From the NCBI RefSeq assembly GCF_002197845.1, contig NZ_NIDE01000014.1, positions 434,001 through 498,000 on the forward strand: 64,000 bases of DNA. Reading direction: 5' to 3'. This document shows positions 250 to 16,533 of this stretch, in pieces; within the stretch, counting starts at the first letter, position 1; the number at the start of each line of letters is the position of its first letter. Under the pieces are notes generated by a model. It had not been told where the DNA came from. It ran no database searches and saw only the letters and a program-made list of their open reading frames with translations. The position numbers and the translations under genes were made by a program. Source of the DNA: Fimbriiglobus ruber (GTDB lineage: Bacteria; Planctomycetota; Planctomycetia; Gemmatales; Gemmataceae).

Positions 250-3200
250 ATGATCGAGCGACTGATCGAGGCGTCCGTCCGGAACCGGTTCGTGGTTCTC
301 GCCCTGGCCGCGGCGCTCGCCGTGGGCGGGGTCTATGCCACCCTCCAGACGCCGGTGGACGCGATCCCGGACCTCAGCGAGAACCAGGTCATTGTCTTCA
401 CCGACTGGCCGGGCCGGAGCCCGCGCGAGATCGAGGATCAGATCACCTACCCGCTCTCGTTGCGGCTCCAGGGGCTCGCCGGCATCAAGGCGGTCCGGTC
501 GTCGTCCGAGTTCAACTTCTCGATGATCACCCTCATCTTCGAGGAGAGTACTGACTTCTACTTCGCCCGGCAGCGGGTACTCGAACGGCTGACGCAAGCG
601 GGGGCCTTCCTGCCCGCGGGCGTCGTCCCTTACATGGCCCCCGACGCGACCGCCCTCGGCCAGGTGTTCTGGTACACGGTCGAGCCGAGCCCGTCCCACC
701 CGGTCGACCCGGGCCGGCTGTGGGCCGTCAACAAGTTCTACATCGCCCCGCAGCTCAACTCGGCCGCCGGGGTCGCGGAAGTCGCCCCCGTCGGGGGGAC
801 GCCGCTCGAATACCAGATCGATGTCCGGCCGGAAACGCTTCGGACTTATGGGGTCACGGTCGGGGAACTGTTCTCGGCGGTGAGCCGAAGCAACCTCCCA
901 GCCGGCGGCGGGGTCATCCAGAAGAACAACGCCGAGTACATCGTCCGCGGCGTCGGTTGGCTCAAGGACACGGCCGACATCGAGAACACGGTGGTCAAGG
1001 AGATCAACGGCATCCCGGTCTACGTGAAGACGGTGGCGACTGTGCAGGTCGGGACGCAGTTCCGGCGGAGCGTGTTCGAGAAGGACGGGAACGAGGTCGT
1101 GGGCGGGGTGGTCCTCATGCGGCACGGGGGGAACCCGTTGGCCGTGACGGAGCGGGTGAAGGCGAAGATCCAAGAACTCCAGCCCGGTCTCCCGCCGGGT
1201 GTCCAGATCGTCCCCGCCTACGACCGCACGCGACTCATCACGGGGGCCATCCACACGCTCACCGAAGTGATGTGGCACGAGATGCTGATCGCGGGCGTCG
1301 CCATCCTGCTCATCCTGGGGCACGTCCGGAGCGTGTTCGTCATCTGCGTGACGCTGCCCCTCTCGGTCCTGTTTTCGTTCCTGTTGATGTTCCTACTTCG
1401 GAAGCTTGGCGTCATCGACATCCAAGCGAACGTAATGTCCCTCGCCGGGATCACGATCTCGATTGGCATCCTCGTCGACCAGGCGATCGTGATGACGGAG
1501 AACGCGACACACCACCTCAAGGAACGCTTCGGCGACCAGAAGGTGACCGGAGACACCCGGGAAATCGTCGTCCGCGCTTGCCGCACCGTCGGCCGGCCGA
1601 TCTTCTTTTCCGTCCTCATCATGCTGCTCTCGTTCGTCCCGGTGTTCATGCTCTCGGGGCGGGAAGGGAAGTATTTTCACCCACTCGCGTTCACCAAGAG
1701 CTTCGCCCTCCTCGGTGTCGCCCTGATCTCGGTCACGGTGGTGCCGGCGCTGATTCCGACCTTCATCCGCGGGCGGCTCCGAAGCGAAGAGGAGAACTGG
1801 ATCGTTCGGGGCTTCATCCGCGTCTACCGGCCGCTCCTCACCTGGGCGCTGCCGCGGCGGAATCTGGTCATGTGGGCGTTCGCCGCGCTGCTCATCCTCG
1901 CGGCCGGCCTCTTCCCCGTTCAGGCGCTCGTTGGGATGGGGGCTTCCGAGTCGGCGTGGGGGGCGATGTTCCTTATTGTCTTCGGCGTTGTGACCGTTCT
2001 CACGGTCGCGTTCACCCGCGGGTTCCTGCCGCAGGCGGTCTCACTCGCGACCCTCGTCCTGCTCGCGCTCTGGGCCTGGCACTTCCCGAAGATCGGCGTC
2101 TCGTTCATGCCGGCTCTCGACGAGGGGACGACGCTCGACATGCCGGTCACGGTGCCGCGGGTGAGCGTGACCGAGGCGGCGGACGACCTCAAGGCCCGCG
2201 ACGCACTGCTCCGCGGGTTCCCGGAGGTCGAGTCGGTCGTCGGCAAGGCGGGCCGGGCGGACACCCCGACCGACCCGGCCCCGCTCGACATGGTGGAGAC
2301 CTTCGTGAACTTTCGGCCGCGCGAGTTGTGGCCGAAGCGCGTCCTCCGGTTTCCGGACGCCGACCTCCAGACACGGGCCGTCCTCCGGGCGCTTGAGGAC
2401 CGGGGGTATCTCCTCCCGGCTCCGCACGCCGACGACCGGGAAAACGTGGTCAACGAGGCGGCGCAGCGGGCGCTGGAGCGGTTCGACGAGACGATACGGG
2501 AACTCGCGCTGCGGCACTACGTCGAGTTCGAGCAGGAATTGGGGCCAATGCTCACCCGGTTCGTGGTCGCGGAGACGCTTCGCCGGATGCGTGAGGCGGG
2601 GCACCTCGACGCCCTCACGGCTGGCGACGAGGCGAAACTCGCCGAGGAATTGTCCACACAATTGACCCCGGACGAGGGAGTACGGCTCGCCAAACAACCT
2701 GCCCTGGAAGCGATCACCCGCATCCAACGTCAGACGACCGAGACCCTCGCCGCTCGGAAGGTCATTGGGGATGCCGCGGTCGCCCTGGAGATACACGAAG
2801 GGCGACTCGGCCAGGCGTTGGGTACTCTGAGGGAATCTCTCGGCGGGGTACGTGAGACGCTTGCCGGTGCGGTACTCCGGGCGACCAACGACCGGCGGCA
2901 CGGGGCCTGGATCGAGAGCGTAAACAAGGTGAATTGGGAACTCTTCGACCGCGGGACCGAGGCGTTTACCTGGTACGCCATCGACGAACTCGTCGCGAGC
3001 GGGAGCCGGGTCGCACTCGTCCAAGCTGCTCCGTTGGGGATCGAGGCCGAACGGTTTGCCGCGGCATCAAAGAACGTTCGCCTTGGGAAACCTTACGACG
3101 CGGACGCGCTGGAACCGTTGGGGAAACTCCGGGCGGAACTCGAAGGGCCGTTCCGCGAACGGGTCTTCCTCTGGCGGCGGACCGGCGGGCCGAAGGGGGA

Positions 3201-8524: not shown

Positions 8525-9445
8525 ATGACTCCGATCGTCGGCATCGGCGAGCTCCTCTGGGACGTTTACCCGGACGGCCGGAAGGTGGCCGGCGGGGCGC
8601 CGTTCAACTTCGCGTTCCACTGCCAACAACTCGGGCACGAGACGGTGATCGTCAGCCGCGTCGGCGACGACGACCTCGGCCGCGAGTTGCGCGAAGAAGT
8701 CCGCCGCTTGGGGATGACGGACGAATTCATTCAGACCGACCCCAACCACCCGACCGGCACCGTGCGCGTGTCGGTCGACGCGGGAGGCCAACCGACGTAC
8801 ACGATCGCGGAAGACGTCGCGTGGGATTACATCACCTGGGACGAACACCTCAAGAGGCTCGCGGCGTCCGCGACCGCCGTATGCTTCGGGACACTGGCGC
8901 AGCGGCAATCGGTCAGCCGCGACGCGATCCGCCGGCTCGTTGATCCGACGACGTCCGCACTTCGGGTTTGTGACCTGAATTTCCGCTGGCCGTTCGTCAC
9001 GAGCGACGTGGTCAAAGCGTCCCTGGCGTCGGCGAACTGGGTGAAATTGAATCACGACGAGTTAGCCCTGGTGCCCGAACTTGTCGATTGGCGAATTGCC
9101 GCTTCGTCGCCGGACGAACGAACGGCGGAAACGATCGACCGCCTGAAATCCGACTTCCCGCTCAAACTCATCTGCGTCACCCGCGGAGGCCACGGGTGCA
9201 AGATCGTCTCGGAATGGGGCGATGTGGACTTGCCGGGAGTGCCCGTCAACCTGGTCGACACCGTCGGCGCCGGCGACGCGTTCACGGCCGCCCTGTTGGT
9301 TCTGCAGCTGGAACGCGCGCGGCCCCTTTCCGAAGTGGCGCGATCCGCCCTCCATTACGCGGGCCGCGTGTGCGAGTTCCGGGGCGGGACGCCGCGGATC
9401 GACCGGGCCGATGTTGAGCGGGCAGCGTTCGGGAGATTGTCGTGA
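8525..9445 (+). CDS. PfkB-family sugar kinase (fructokinase-like)
   Basis: ATP-dependent carbohydrate kinase of the ribokinase/PfkB family, 306 residues, cytosolic. The N-terminal signature is GELLWDVYPDG followed by GGAPFNFAFH (substrate pocket). The C-terminal signature DTVGAGDAF contains the catalytic base Asp251 and the anion hole. The short N-terminus and GGAPFN variant are most like fructokinases, but the sugar is uncertain. A GTG 12 bases upstream is also possible; ATG at 8525 matches the family start. The stop overlaps the GTG start of the next gene (GTGA), so the two are probably co-translated. Confidence 0.88.
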   Translation: MTPIVGIGELLWDVYPDGRKVAGGAPFNFAFHCQQLGHETVIVSRVGDDDLGRELREEVRRLGMTDEFIQTDPNHPTGTVRVSVDAGGQPTYTIAEDVAWDYITWDEHLKRLAASATAVCFGTLAQRQSVSRDAIRRLVDPTTSALRVCDLNFRWPFVTSDVVKASLASANWVKLNHDELALVPELVDWRIAASSPDERTAETIDRLKSDFPLKLICVTRGGHGCKIVSEWGDVDLPGVPVNLVDTVGAGDAFTAALLVLQLERARPLSEVARSALHYAGRVCEFRGGTPRIDRADVERAAFGRLS

Positions 9446-10005
9446 ACCCGCAGTGGCTCCCGCCGAATATCGAAACCGCGCGGCTCATCCTTCGTCCCGT
9501 CACCCCGGACGATGCCGACGCCGTGTTCGCCGCGTGTTCGAACCCAAATGTCACCAGATATACGTTGTTTGATGCGCACCGGAGACGCGATGAGAGTCTG
9601 GCGTTCGTTTGCGACTACGCACCGGCCGGCTACGCCCGACAAGTCCCGGACCCGCTCGCCATCACCCTCAAACAAGACCCCGACCCCCGCCTCGTCGGAT
9701 GCATTGGGTGTTACTGGGTGTCCGAATCGAACCGGACGATGGAAGCCGGCTACTGGCTCACCGAACACCTCTGGGGTCGCGGGCTGGCGGCCGAGGCGCT
9801 GGCCGCCGTCGTCGGGCACGTGTTCACCGAATATCCTGTCGACCGGATTCAGGCCCGGGTCATTGTGGGCAACCCGGCGAGCGCGCGGGTGCTGGAGAAG
9901 GTCGGCTTCCGGCACGAGGGGACGATGCGGGCGTCCCTGGTCCGCCGCGGGCAAACCGAGGACGTGATGATTTTTGCCCTGTTGCGCGCCGAAAATGCTG
10001 GGTAG
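9442..10005 (+). CDS. GNAT N-acetyltransferase, RimJ/RimL type
   Basis: 187-residue acetyl-CoA-dependent acetyltransferase. The N-terminal stretch ETARLILRPVTPDDADAVF is typical of RimJ/RimL-like GNATs. The acetyl-CoA loop appears as LWGRGLAAEALAAVV (about 111-125), followed by ARVIVGNPASARVLEKVGF (about 136-154), the usual beta5/alpha4 segment. The acceptor is unknown; proteins of this group acetylate N-termini or small amines. It starts at a GTG overlapping the kinase stop codon. Confidence 0.85.
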   Translation: MNPQWLPPNIETARLILRPVTPDDADAVFAACSNPNVTRYTLFDAHRRRDESLAFVCDYAPAGYARQVPDPLAITLKQDPDPRLVGCIGCYWVSESNRTMEAGYWLTEHLWGRGLAAEALAAVVGHVFTEYPVDRIQARVIVGNPASARVLEKVGFRHEGTMRASLVRRGQTEDVMIFALLRAENAG

Positions 10006-10043
10006 AGTCCGCGTCGCCCGGTCTCACGGCAATGGAGTTGCCC

Positions 10044-11168
10044 ATGTCCCGCATCTTACTCGCCCTGACACTGGTCCTGATGTCGGCTCTGGCTGCCCCG
10101 GCTGCTTCGATTCCCGAGCGCGACGCCCTCATGCGTCGGGCCGCCGCCGTCCGGCCGAACGAGGGCGACTTCCGCTGGCAACAAATCCCCTGGCAGATCG
10201 ACCCGGCCGAGGCGTTGAAACTCGCGCGGGACGAGCAGCGGCCGCTGTTCGTCTGGCTCGCGGGCGGCCGGGACCGGGACGGCTCGCCGCTGGAGCGGTG
10301 CTGAGGGTACGCCGCCGGGCTCCGTGCGGGCCCCCTGAACGACGAGCGGGTCATCCGCCTCGTCGCGACCCATTTCATCCCCGTCGCGCTCAACACCGAC
10401 CGCCTGCCGGACACGGACGCGGGCCGCTTTTTCCGCAACCTGATGCGGCAGTGGCCGCAAGGGCTGTGGGTGGTCACGCCGGACGGGAAGACGCTCGGGT
10501 TTCACTACCACAAACCCGTGCCCGGGGACAACTACCGGCAGAACCAGCAGCGCTGGGTCGACGACACGGTCAAGATGCTCGAAGCCGCGGCGAAGGCGGC
10601 CGGCCCGTTGCCGCCGCGCACCGCCCGCGCCAGCAACCCGTTCCCCGACCGGGGCGTCGGCCCCACGAAGGACGGCGGAGTGCGGCTCGCCGTGAGTGTG
10701 ATCGGTCTCCAAAACGGCCGACAGGACGGACCGCCAGCGGTGGACAGCATCCTCCTTAGTAAGGAGGAGTGGACCGCGTTCGCGCCACCCGAGGGGAAAA
10801 CCGCGTGGGCGCTCCCGGAGGCAGTGGCGAAGAGGTTCGCGCCCGCGCTCGCCCCGGTCACCGACTCGATCTTCGTCCCGCGGCCGACGGACGTGAACTA
10901 CGCCATCATCAAAGCGGCGTCCGGCCTTACGGCAGACGGCGTCGGCGTGGTCCGGTACGCCGGCGCGTGGTCGTCATTGCACAACCGGGACGGCGACCCG
11001 AATTTGCCTATCCGCTGTGACATGACCGGCGAAGGATTCGCGACTTACGACGCGAAGACGAAACAGATTCGGTCATTCTTGTGGGTGTTGAAAGGCACTT
11101 ACCGCAACGGCGCGAATGGAACGCCGATTCCGACCGCGGCCGTGGTCGAGTGGGAAGAGAAGGAGTGA
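10044..11168 (+). CDS. Thioredoxin-like secreted protein with in-frame TGA (Cys-Sec candidate)
   Basis: Read through the TGA at 10302-10304 this is one 374-residue ORF; read as a stop it is an 86-residue fragment. A signal peptide covers about residues 1-22. Cys86 precedes the TGA (codon 87), giving a Cys-Sec pair where thioredoxin-fold proteins carry their redox cysteine (context PLFVWLAGG before, GYAAGLRAG after). Downstream the frame stays open for 288 codons with unchanged GC3 bias, and its start lacks any independent initiation signal. A GC-rich hairpin with a GUGC loop at 10324-10327 lies 20-23 nt after the TGA, the distance expected of a bacterial SECIS. The start has GGAG 6 bases upstream. 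The alternative is a point nonsense mutation making a pseudogene. Confidence 0.65.
10302..10334 (+). promoter_or_regulatory. Candidate bacterial SECIS hairpin
   Basis: TGA at 10302-10304 is followed by a stem 10317-10323 with 10328-10334 (three G-C pairs, one C-C mismatch, one U-G pair, two C-G pairs) and a GUGC apical loop at 10324-10327. A loop 16-37 nt downstream that begins with G or GU is typical of bacterial SECIS elements. Found by eye; energy was not computed. Confidence 0.4.
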
Positions 11169-11254: not shown

Positions 11255-11809
11255 TTACCGCCGGCAGTTCGGGCAGCTGCTCACCCCGAAGCTCGGGGCG
11301 AGGTACGGATTGAACGCCGGGGCGTACACCGGAGCCGGGGCCGCCACAACGGGGGCGGGGGCCGCGGGGGTTGCTACGTTGGTCGCCGTCGTGGTGACCG
11401 TGTTGGTTTGGCTGTACCGTTCGAGGTACGTGGCCAGGTCGGTGGGCGAAACGGCCCCTTCGTGCCGGAGCGCCTGGACAGTACCGGACTTGTTGCTGAT
11501 CACAAGCCCCTTGGACATCCCGAACGAGCCCGCCAGGTCTTTGCCGGACTTCGTGTCGGTATCGACGTACACGCACACGTAGCTTTGCTTGAGCAACTTG
11601 GCGGCGTCCGCCCCGATGCCCCCGTCGGTGACCAGCTTCGCGTACCCGTCCCCACCGTGGGCGATGAAAACAGCCACCGGCTTCTGCGACTCGACCGATT
11701 GGGTGAGGGCCGTCCGGTAATCGGACACCCACGCGGGCTGCGCGGGGATCGATCCGTAAGCCAGCAGACCGGTGACCGCCATCGCGGTCAGGGAGGTAGA
11801 AAACATCAT
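11255..11809 (-). CDS. Secreted thioredoxin-like protein with C-terminal CPNC
   Basis: 184-residue exported protein. A signal peptide (about 1-25) precedes a thioredoxin-fold-like domain (about 28-125) with the typical SQKPVAVFIAHGGDGYAKL and YVCVYVDTDT strands, but no CxxC at the usual active-site position. An Ala/Pro/Val-rich tail follows, ending in SSCPNCRR, so the only CxxC is at the extreme C-terminus. The role is unknown, perhaps periplasmic redox or a binding fold. The start at 11809 is chosen because AAGGAGG lies 8 bases upstream; an in-frame start 24 bases earlier lacks this. Confidence 0.7.
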   Translation of the reverse strand: MMFSTSLTAMAVTGLLAYGSIPAQPAWVSDYRTALTQSVESQKPVAVFIAHGGDGYAKLVTDGGIGADAAKLLKQSYVCVYVDTDTKSGKDLAGSFGMSKGLVISNKSGTVQALRHEGAVSPTDLATYLERYSQTNTVTTTATNVATPAAPAPVVAAPAPVYAPAFNPYLAPSFGVSSCPNCRR

Positions 11810-12207
11810 ACGCTGCGCCTCCTTGGTGCACACCTCATGGATTCCCGTGACATCCGCATGCCCCGGGAAGACAACTTTTTAGACGATTCCACCTGCATGT
11901 CAACAAAAATGGCCGGCACGTTCGGCAAATACGGCACAAATGGGCCTGTTTGCTCGGGCCTGATTTCGTGTGTTAGCGTAAAATTAATTATGCGTCTGCC
12001 CAATATGAAAGCGTTACCTGAGCGAAAACAACCAATTACGCAAAAGGGAAAAAGTGATGATTTTTTGGAACTATGCCGAGAGAAAAAGTGCGGACGTGCG
12101 TAAAATAGGGGGCTTTTTTTCGGCGAAACAGTCAGTATATTTATGAGACCGTCATGGTAAATAGGGAAAAATGGATAATCTGCTGCGTTGTGTCAGAAAA
12201 TCTTTCG
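11810..12207. other. AT-rich gene-free island
   Basis: About 400 bp with no supported gene. From about 11870 to 12240 the composition turns sharply AT-rich, with runs such as TTTTTT near 12061 and 12114, against a GC-rich background. It holds the promoter region of the CPNC protein gene and the 3' side of the DUF5522 gene, but no clear hexamers or terminators were resolved. Confidence 0.5.
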
Positions 12208-14154: not shown

Positions 14155-14510
14155 CGACCGGGGAATAACGTGGCTGGAAGGGCGTCTTATCTTCAGACGA
14201 CCGACCGCCACCTCTTCTCCGAGAATCGCCGATCATGTCACGCCCCAACTGGTTGACCCCGTTGACAGTATTCGCGTTCGCCACCGTCGTGGTGGGATGC
14301 GGTGGCGCGGACAATGCACGCGTAGTCCGGGAAGGGGCCGGCCCGGAGATGCCCGCTCTTGCCCCTGCCGGCGCGGTCGCCCAGGCCGGCGGCGGAAAGC
14401 CCGCCGTCGCGGGCGAACCGGCAGTCGAGCGGAAAATCATTTACAACGGCGCGATCGAAGTTGTGGTGAAGGAATTGGACGTCGCGCGGAAGGAAGTCGA
14501 GCGCATCATC

Positions 14511-15762
14511 CAGGGCCTTTCCTTGTTTCATCTTGTTGAATCGACCTGGGCTGGGTAAACGGGGCACCTTCCGATTCCCAGGAGCTGCCCATGCCCGCGT
14601 GTACGCTGTACGAGGCCCTCGCCACCCTCCCCGATCCCCGCAGCCGCCACGGTCGCATTCATCCCCTCCCGGCGGTCATGGGACTGGTCGCTCTGGCCAT
14701 GCTGAGTGGCCGCAAGAGCTTGGCCGGGATCTCCCGGTTCGGACGGCAGCACGGGGCTCCGCTGGCTCACGCCCTGGGCTTCCGGCGGGGCAAAACGCCG
14801 ACCGTCTCGACCCTCTCCCGAACCCTCCGCCGCTTCGACCCCCAGGACCTCGAAGCGGCCCTGTCCCGGTGGGTGACCGGCCGGTTCGACCCCCACGCGT
14901 TCGAGCACATCGCGATCGACGGCAAGACGTTGCGAGGCAGCCGCCACGGGGACGTGCCCGGCCACCACTTGGTGGCCGCCTACGCACCCGCCGTCCAGGC
15001 CGTCCTCGCTCAGGTCCGGGTCGATGCCAAAACGAACGAACACAAGGCCGCCCTCGAACTCCTCGGTATCCTCCCCGTGCGGGGCAAAGTGGTCACCGGG
15101 GACGCCATGTTCTGTCAGCGCGATCTGGCCACCCAGGTGATCGATTCCGGGGGCGACTACGTCCTCGTGGCCAAGGACAACCAACCGGCCTTGGTCGCCG
15201 ATATCCGAGCCGGATTCGCCTTCGCGACCGCCGCCCGATCGATCGCGGCGGCCACTTCCCCCTGAGGACCTGCCAACGGCACCCGATCCCGACCGGGTGG
15301 CCACGTCGGTCGACAAGGGACATGGGCGGATCGAGAAGCGAACCCTCCACACGACGACGATTCTGACCGCCGAGGGGAAGTGGAAGGGGGCCAAGCAAGG
15401 GTTCCACGTCACCCGCGAGCGGACGGTCAAAGGGAAGAAGACGATCGAGGATGTGTACGGAATCACCAGTCTGTCGATCCAACAGGCGAATGCGGCGACA
15501 CGTCTGTCCATCCTCCGGGATCACTGGCCGATCGAGAACGGATTGCATTGGGTCCGGGATGAGACCCTGGGCGAGGACCGCTGCCGGGTGCGGATGGGTG
15601 CGGCTCCGCACGTCCTGGCCGCCATCCGGAACGCCGTCGTCCATCTGTTGGCCGATGTCGACACCGAGAACCGTCCGGAGGCCATCGAGTGGCTGCAAAT
15701 CCACCACGATGAAGCCCGGGCGCTGATTGGGATCCCACAAAGTGAATAAAGGAAAGGCCCTG
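14511..15762 (+). mobile_element. ISAs1-like insertion sequence, 1252 bp
   Basis: Both ends begin CAGGGCCTTTCCTT (reading inwards), giving imperfect terminal inverted repeats of about 25 bp. The flanks carry an exact 10-bp target duplication, GCGCATCATC, at 14501-14510 and 15763-15772. Length, duplication size and transposase all fit the ISAs1 family. The element splits the DUF4349 gene. Confidence 0.9.
14591..15749 (+). pseudogene. ISAs1-family transposase, frameshifted
   Basis: Two ORFs in different frames, 14591-15265 (224 residues) and 15297-15749 (150), together equal one normal ISAs1 transposase. The first begins LYEALATLPDPRSRHGRIHPL and carries the first DDE Asp in AIDGKTLRGS and the second in VTGDAMFCQ. 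The second carries VDKGHGRIEKRTL and the Glu in HWPIENGLHWVRDET. The frame changes by +1 at a C5 run near 15257-15261; the upper frame reaches TGA at once. This is probably an inactivating insertion in the homopolymer; programmed shifting is possible but not typical of the family. AGGAG precedes the ATG. Confidence 0.8.
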
Positions 15763-16533
15763 GCGCATCATCGAGGAACACAAGGGGTACGTTTCCAAAT
15801 CGGACGTGACCGGCGATATTGGTTCCCGGCGCACGGCGACGTGGACGTTGAAGGTGCCCGTGGACCAGTTCCGGGCCGTCCTGGCCGCACTCGCGGCCCT
15901 CGGCCACCCGGTCCGGAACTCGTCCGATTCGCAGGACGTGACCGAGGAGTTCGTCGACCTGCAGGCGCGCGTCAAGAACTTCAAGGTGGAAGAGGAAACG
16001 CTCAACAAGCTGCTCAAGGAGTCGGCCGTCAAGATCGAGGACATCCTGAAAATCCGCGAACAAATCAAGAACGTCCGCGGCGATATCGAACGGGCCGAGG
16101 GGCGGATGAAGTACCTCTCCACGATGGCCGCCATGTCCACCGTCACGATGACCGCCCGGGAGGACATGACCTACGTTCCCCCGCTGCCCGAGACGGCACC
16201 GACGTTCGGGGACGAGATCGAAGGGACGTTTTCGCGGTCGGTCAACGCGCTCAAGAATACCGGCCAGCAGCTCACACTCGTCGCCGTCGGGCTCGCCCCG
16301 TGGTCGCCGTTCATCCTGATCGGGCTGCTCTTCTTCCGCTGGGCGATCAAAAAGCTGATCGCGTCGGGGAACACGCCCGCGACCCACCGCTCACCCCGCG
16401 AGCCGCGGCGGTCCCGCTCTGACGCCGACCCGGCGCCAGTCGCGCTTCCGCTCGCCCATCCCCCGGCGCACCCCGAGCCGGAAAAGCCCGCCGGCGGAGA
16501 AGGTGGCTGACGCGTTTCGCGGTCGGGACGGAA

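Follow-up and report, generated by a model that had tools for sequence, protein, structure and literature searches.

The gene at positions 10044–11168 (plus strand) of the 64,000-nucleotide stretch of the Fimbriiglobus ruber genome analysed here, hereafter the window, is very probably a genuine selenoprotein gene, judging from sequence comparison. It would encode 374 residues with the TGA at codon 87 read as selenocysteine (Sec). The initial annotation had proposed a selenoprotein with Sec at this position, and we uphold that reading because the TGA is conserved among relatives, the host genome carries the Sec machinery genes and a hairpin downstream of the TGA covaries; Sec incorporation is what these three lines point to, and none of the refuting conditions named with the initial proposal applies. 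With less assurance, we favour the wider view that Planctomycetota possess a widespread and repeatedly duplicated group of exported thioredoxin-fold selenoproteins with a new CU or CxU site layout, in which the partner cysteine has moved N-terminally and whose genes are truncated by ordinary gene calling.

The gene and its interrupting TGA

The frame that begins with ATG 10044 is open as far as a terminal TGA at 11166–11168, and its sole interruption is the TGA at 10302–10304, which is codon 87. The earlier statement that one frame runs on both sides of this TGA is therefore correct, as is the statement that a cysteine precedes it (Cys86, codon 10299–10301). The extent of the gene was taken from the frame translation and from an alignment with homologues of 13 loci, which are 32–62% identical to the window protein. 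A GGAG at 10034–10037, six bases upstream of the ATG, is likely to be the ribosome-binding site, and the hydrophobic N-terminus of the translation is a probable signal peptide (residues 1–22, 10044–10109). The next in-frame ATG, GTG or TTG after codon 87 is ATG 10443, with 46 codons in between, exactly as had been claimed; it opens a frame of 241 amino acids and falls within the predicted thioredoxin domain.

Conservation of the TGA among relatives

A protein search of 95 family genomes gave a match in 61, of which 56 have a TGA-bearing match and five have stop-free matches only. In this search, the 80 further TGA-bearing sequences described below are 24–62% identical to the window protein. 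We examined 91 loci (L017–L047 and L053–L112), 90 of them from the family search and one, L017, from another search; weaker family-search matches lie outside these loci, and the member counts given below apply to the examined set. Ninety of the 91 loci gave a match, in 101 segments. Four segments were removed as duplicates (L017 and L023, apparently a single contig, were counted once), which left 81 distinct sequences with the TGA, one of them from the window, and 16 without TGA, one of the latter being the downstream half of a gene only. Locus L061 had no match in the segment search; it is a TGA member by profile and is not among the 81.

The TGA of all 81 members, which is the codon at the place of residue 87 that the initial annotation had proposed to compare, stands at a single place in the alignment, across several sub-groups with the motifs RCUGYAxGLRxGPL (that of the window), GHPLGCxUNNGV, and the CUxAGxGGRAP and xGRCUxGAxxMRxSSLS types. 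Elsewhere in the 16,800 matched codons TGA occurs just three times, always at the C-terminal end, and one of the three is the window's own stop. This single conserved position, with no other internal TGA, speaks against both decay and a changed code; a reassigned genetic code was considered and rejected on these grounds. Since the same TGA recurs in homologues from many other assemblies, neither a read error at 10302, which is very unlikely, nor a fresh nonsense mutation explains it.

In one contig (L070 1312–11873, G061:C62), seven or eight family members stand in a row with a TGA at each motif (nt 1615, 3136, 3910, 5272, 6631, 8038, 9392 and 10743, of which 3136 was judged by motif only), and a single family search found eleven TGA-bearing matches in the genome concerned. 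One orthologue (L029 1501–2511, genome G062) has a TAG besides the TGA and is either a damaged copy or an assembly error.

When the host genome was searched with the full window protein, the gene itself was the sole match. A search with a core profile retrieved two more TGA-bearing relatives there, which are candidate selenoproteins of the same superfamily: L115 (TGA 1594–1596, minus strand; match G000:C1:1505229–1505429), with the motif FCUTN, and L118 (TGA 1588–1590, minus strand; match G000:C1:355504–355683), with FTUNN. A CGTG-containing loop follows each TGA, the isolated hairpins being of −4.9 and −6.9 kcal/mol, respectively.

Distribution over the phylum

The core profile A2 was built from TGA-bearing rows with C in place of U. 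Of 392 genomes sampled across the phylum, 276 gave a match at E ≤ 1e-6, although the weak ones among these matches may be ordinary thioredoxins. Each row stronger than 3.3e-20 among the matches listed has exactly one TGA, and TGA-bearing rows occur in at least 92 of the 392 genomes and at least 33 families. Within the window's class but outside its family, one of 38 matching genomes has a TGA-bearing row among the matches listed. The spread of TGA-bearing members over the phylum is patchy. In a hold-out of 40 regions from other families, 39 of them picked for a flagged TGA, the profile column of residue 87 holds TGA in 40 of 42 matches; the remaining two have N and S there. On a tree of 143 rows the Sec label needs 11 changes, a figure that rests on few columns and on rows chosen partly by their TGA state.

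Selenocysteine insertion genes

A search for selA, selB, selC and selD, suggested as a check of the selenoprotein reading, found all four in the host assembly (12.36 Mb, 97% complete), each above its cut-off. The tRNA-Sec scored 70.7 bits against a gathering score of 47 and was called tRNA-SeC with anticodon TCA by ARAGORN, which assigned two further host tRNA matches above the Rfam cut-off to tRNA-Ser. SelB scored 362.6 bits in frame (cut-off 242) with its C-terminal stretch 399–577 included, SelA 557.4 (267.9) and SelD 361.8 (125).

Over the 95 family genomes, tRNA-Sec was detected at E 1e-9 in 77, as compared with 3 of 14 named genomes that served as a control, and SelB at E 1e-70 in 76; five of the remaining 19 exceed the SelB cut-off once neighbouring matches are added. 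The 56 TGA-type genomes include 49 with tRNA-Sec and 55 with tRNA-Sec or SelB. In the seven where tRNA-Sec was not detected, one (G082, 88% complete) is also without a detected SelB. The presence of tRNA-Sec and that of a TGA-type gene are weakly associated, which is suggestive only (Fisher p 0.066). Three family genomes (G001, G027 and G052) have two tRNA-Sec matches above the cut-off each.

A hairpin downstream of the TGA

The putative SECIS hairpin of the window gene (10317–10333) consists of a 6-bp stem, 10317–10322 with 10328–10333, and a loop of five nucleotides, CGUGC, at 10323–10327, with a spacing of 18 and −9.0 kcal/mol as an isolated hairpin. The GUGC at 10324–10327 is the 20th to 23rd nucleotide past the UGA, which is where the initial annotation had placed it, and it lies within the loop of the stem that covaries among relatives (see below). 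When the proposed check of folding was carried out on 10299–10345 alone, it gave z = 0.32 and an optimal structure that does not fully coincide with the 6-bp stem. Moreover, 37% of synonymous shuffles of the window gene reach an equally good hairpin. Taken alone, the hairpin of the window gene is not significant. A scan of 10200–10500 against Rfam gave no meaningful match (one miRNA model, 16.8 bits against a gathering score of 80).

The comparison of relatives gives a different picture. We analysed the members with CGTG exactly 18 nt after the TGA (50 of 81, 44 of them distinct). In these 44 sequences, 98.5% of the 264 cells of the 6-bp stem around the 5-nt loop are paired, versus 66.6% with shuffled partners and 31–53% with slid partners. 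Changes on both sides of a pair account for 79 cells, as compared with 25.8 in shuffled controls, these counts being of cells rather than of events and inflated by the kinship of the sequences. One pair of the stem is invariant, and another shows changes on a single side. RNAalifold recovered the same 6-bp stem from this set unprompted.

The best hairpin of the remaining 31 members is often spaced differently from the TGA, as with GAGAGCGAGTTCGCTCTC and GAGAGTGAGTTCACTCTC, with the loop AGTT at +24. Under the limits for bacterial SECIS elements given in section 5 of PMC13188914, a hairpin of −7.5 kcal/mol or below (isolated) is present in 56 of the 81 members and missed in 25; in 100 synonymous-codon shuffles, on average 13.0 and never more than 23 of the 81 reached this energy. 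A CGNG loop at +18 was also found in 24 of the 40 hold-out regions. In the 21 distinct sequences among these 24, 109 of 126 cells pair, and 102 of 105 do so in the inner five pairs; the outermost pair is mostly lost outside the family.

Predicted fold and active site

An AlphaFold2 model of the whole window protein, made from an input alignment of 14 sequences, has a mean pLDDT of 89.5 and a pTM of 0.85. In this model, residues from about 41 to 190 (10164–10613) clearly adopt a thioredoxin fold: VIA-align superimposes 124 residues on 3f9u with a Z of 12.6 and an rmsd of 3.4, which bears out the earlier description of the protein as thioredoxin-like at the level of a predicted structure. Other matches of the same part are DsbH 2ju5 (Z 10.8), AGR3 3ph9 (10.6) and the C-terminal domain of DsbD (9.4). 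Residues 190–374 (10611–11165), modelled alone with a mean pLDDT of 92.9, are predicted to form a beta-rich domain whose best VIA match, the beta-barrel OmpX (Z 8.2), is not distinctive. Foldseek found no match in the PDB at E ≤ 0.001 for either the whole protein or the C-terminal domain. Thioredoxins are expected to have a proline before strand 4; inspection of the alignment by eye did not reveal it at QGLW.

Codon 87 falls in the same alignment column as the first cysteine of relatives that carry CxxC, three of which are encoded in the host genome. The site itself reads U87-G-Y-A90, with the second cysteine of CxxC replaced by alanine. Position +3 in the 81 members is G in 36, A in 34, V in nine and C in two. 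The CxxC of thioredoxins is absent from the window protein, which may act like a thioredoxin-fold enzyme and not as a classical thioredoxin. A cysteine stands upstream of Sec at −1 in 52 members and at −2 in 26; three have neither. As Cys86, Sec87 and Cys325 are the only residues of their kind in the window protein, Cys86 is likely to be the resolving partner of Sec.

Another 24 relatives, selected for absence of the TGA, have a sense codon at the Sec site, namely C in 11, D in four, S in four, G in two and R, P and N in one each. The 11 Cys forms include L044 and the CxxC proteins. The residues of the other 13 are unusual for the position of a catalytic Sec, and seven of these 13 retain a cysteine just before the site (by eye). 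Genomes G029 and G032 hold relatives (L059, L078, L086, L102, L103, L111 and L112) with G, D, S or P at the Sec site or, in L112, Cys. Sec has been lost there mostly with no Cys taking its place, and the preceding cysteine is mostly kept; both genomes have tRNA-Sec and SelB.

Proposed decoding and alternative explanations

We propose that SelB and tRNA-Sec insert selenocysteine at UGA87, directed by a bacterial SECIS hairpin that lies in the coding sequence and would start 12 nt past the UGA. The product would be an exported protein with Sec in place of the first, nucleophilic cysteine of a thioredoxin CxxC. With the second cysteine replaced, the neighbouring one (Cys86 here, the cysteine at −2 in others) probably pairs with Sec and would be its selenenylsulfide partner. 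A redox role is likely, the putative Cys-Sec pair being its centre; the protein would then most likely be a thiol/selenol oxidoreductase or a peroxide reductase that acts outside the cytoplasm.

A nonsense mutation would mean that the gene encoded an ordinary thioredoxin-like protein and has recently become a pseudogene. The TGA does break the frame, and SelB and tRNA-Sec could serve other proteins, yet the same TGA is found in 80 further distinct sequences from the 91 loci and again in 40 of the 42 matches of the hold-out, and members have no other internal TGA, which makes such a mutation scarcely credible. It is also quite improbable, if slightly less so, that the locus yields two products, one of 86 residues and one started at ATG 10443 with its in-frame 241 codons, or that Trp or some other residue is misincorporated at the UGA. 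Conservation spans the TGA and is strong in its immediate surroundings, and initiation at 10443 would split the thioredoxin domain; Trp is absent from the sense residues found at the site in the 24 relatives, and the covarying SECIS-type hairpin and the Sec machinery also speak against these versions.

The alternative that deserves most weight accepts a genuine selenoprotein and questions what its Sec does: instead of thioredoxin-type catalysis, the Cys-Sec pair could, for instance, bind a metal or metalloid. The loss of the second cysteine of CxxC (+3 is C in two of 81 members) fits this possibility, as do the preceding cysteines kept by seven of 13 relatives that lack both Sec and Cys at the site. 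On the other hand, Sec stands where a thioredoxin fold has its first cysteine, and section 7 of PMC13188914 regards redox functions as likely for most uncharacterised selenoproteins. We hold a Sec outside thioredoxin-type catalysis to be distinctly less probable than a redox-active one.

Relation to known selenoproteins

No curated family of NCBIfam or Pfam was matched above its cut-off by the window protein. The VPGUxxT families NF041382 and NF041383 are likewise thioredoxin-like (seleno)proteins; their motif differs from the RCUGYA or GCxUNN of the present family. The window protein had no match in NCBIfam, these two included, and no protein of the host genome exceeds the cut-off of either. 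Of 46 members, ten match NF041383 weakly (best E 4.4e-06; five of the ten score 12.8–26.5 bits against a cut-off of 275) and four match NF041382 (best E 0.0012). The fold of residues from about 41 to 190 is shared with DsbH/DUF255 (PF03190; PDB 2ju5, 3ira and 7tkv) and with AGR2 and AGR3 (Z 10.3–10.8). These proteins have CxxC where the window protein has CU-G-Y-A, and the PF03190 Thioredox_DsbH model gave 15.0 bits for the whole window protein and 18.6 bits for its core (E 0.0019), below the gathering score of 27. Sec in a thioredoxin-like protein is also known from the selenoprotein thioredoxin (UxxC) and Sec.1 (CxU, PF13192), both in Table 1 of PMC13188914. Relative to both, the second cysteine is missing in 79 of 81 members of the present family and the window protein has an extra C-terminal domain; PF13192 matched none of 46 members at E 0.01.

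The 119 prokaryotic selenoprotein families and subfamilies of that table include no fitting entry, and the string "planctomyc-" is absent from the accessible text of the review; planctomycetes are not named in PMC9312934 either. A description of the family was not found in the accessible literature searched on planctomycete and Gemmataceae selenoproteins. PMC4807772 describes Sec-insertion genes for Gemmata obscuriglobus and Isosphaera pallida; its table S9 gives selenoprotein candidates of two other planctomycetes. The authors of deep-Sep (PMC12013277) point out that selenoproteins without Cys homologues may escape their method, and the present family may have been overlooked because the Cys form is uncommon among the examined relatives. 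The mechanism of Sec insertion is already known; the family itself looks uncatalogued in the literature covered.

Cultured relatives of Fimbriiglobus ruber are aerobic. Selenoproteins are rarely retained in aerobic bacteria, according to section 10 of PMC13188914. If the wider view is true, parts of Planctomycetota join the selenoprotein-rich groups, and a large family is apparently missing from the catalogue of prokaryotic selenoproteins as given in Table 1 of that review. Ordinary gene calling would split the genes of this family at the TGA. The size of the planctomycete selenoproteome and the role of an extracytoplasmic Cys-Sec pair become directly testable.

Neighbouring genes

The convergent neighbour of the gene (11255–11833, minus strand) encodes a protein that is probably exported and, inspected by eye, looks like a thioredoxin fold; there is a CPNC at its end and no CxxC in the part that resembles thioredoxin. 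A match to this gene adjoins the orthologue in L021 and in L017/L023. The acetyltransferase-like gene upstream (9442–10005) has a match near the orthologue in L021, L025 and L017/L023. Further along the window, the open frames at 14591–15749 resemble what we take to be a two-piece transposase; they sit between 14235–14558 and 15806–16510, which are maybe the halves of one interrupted gene.
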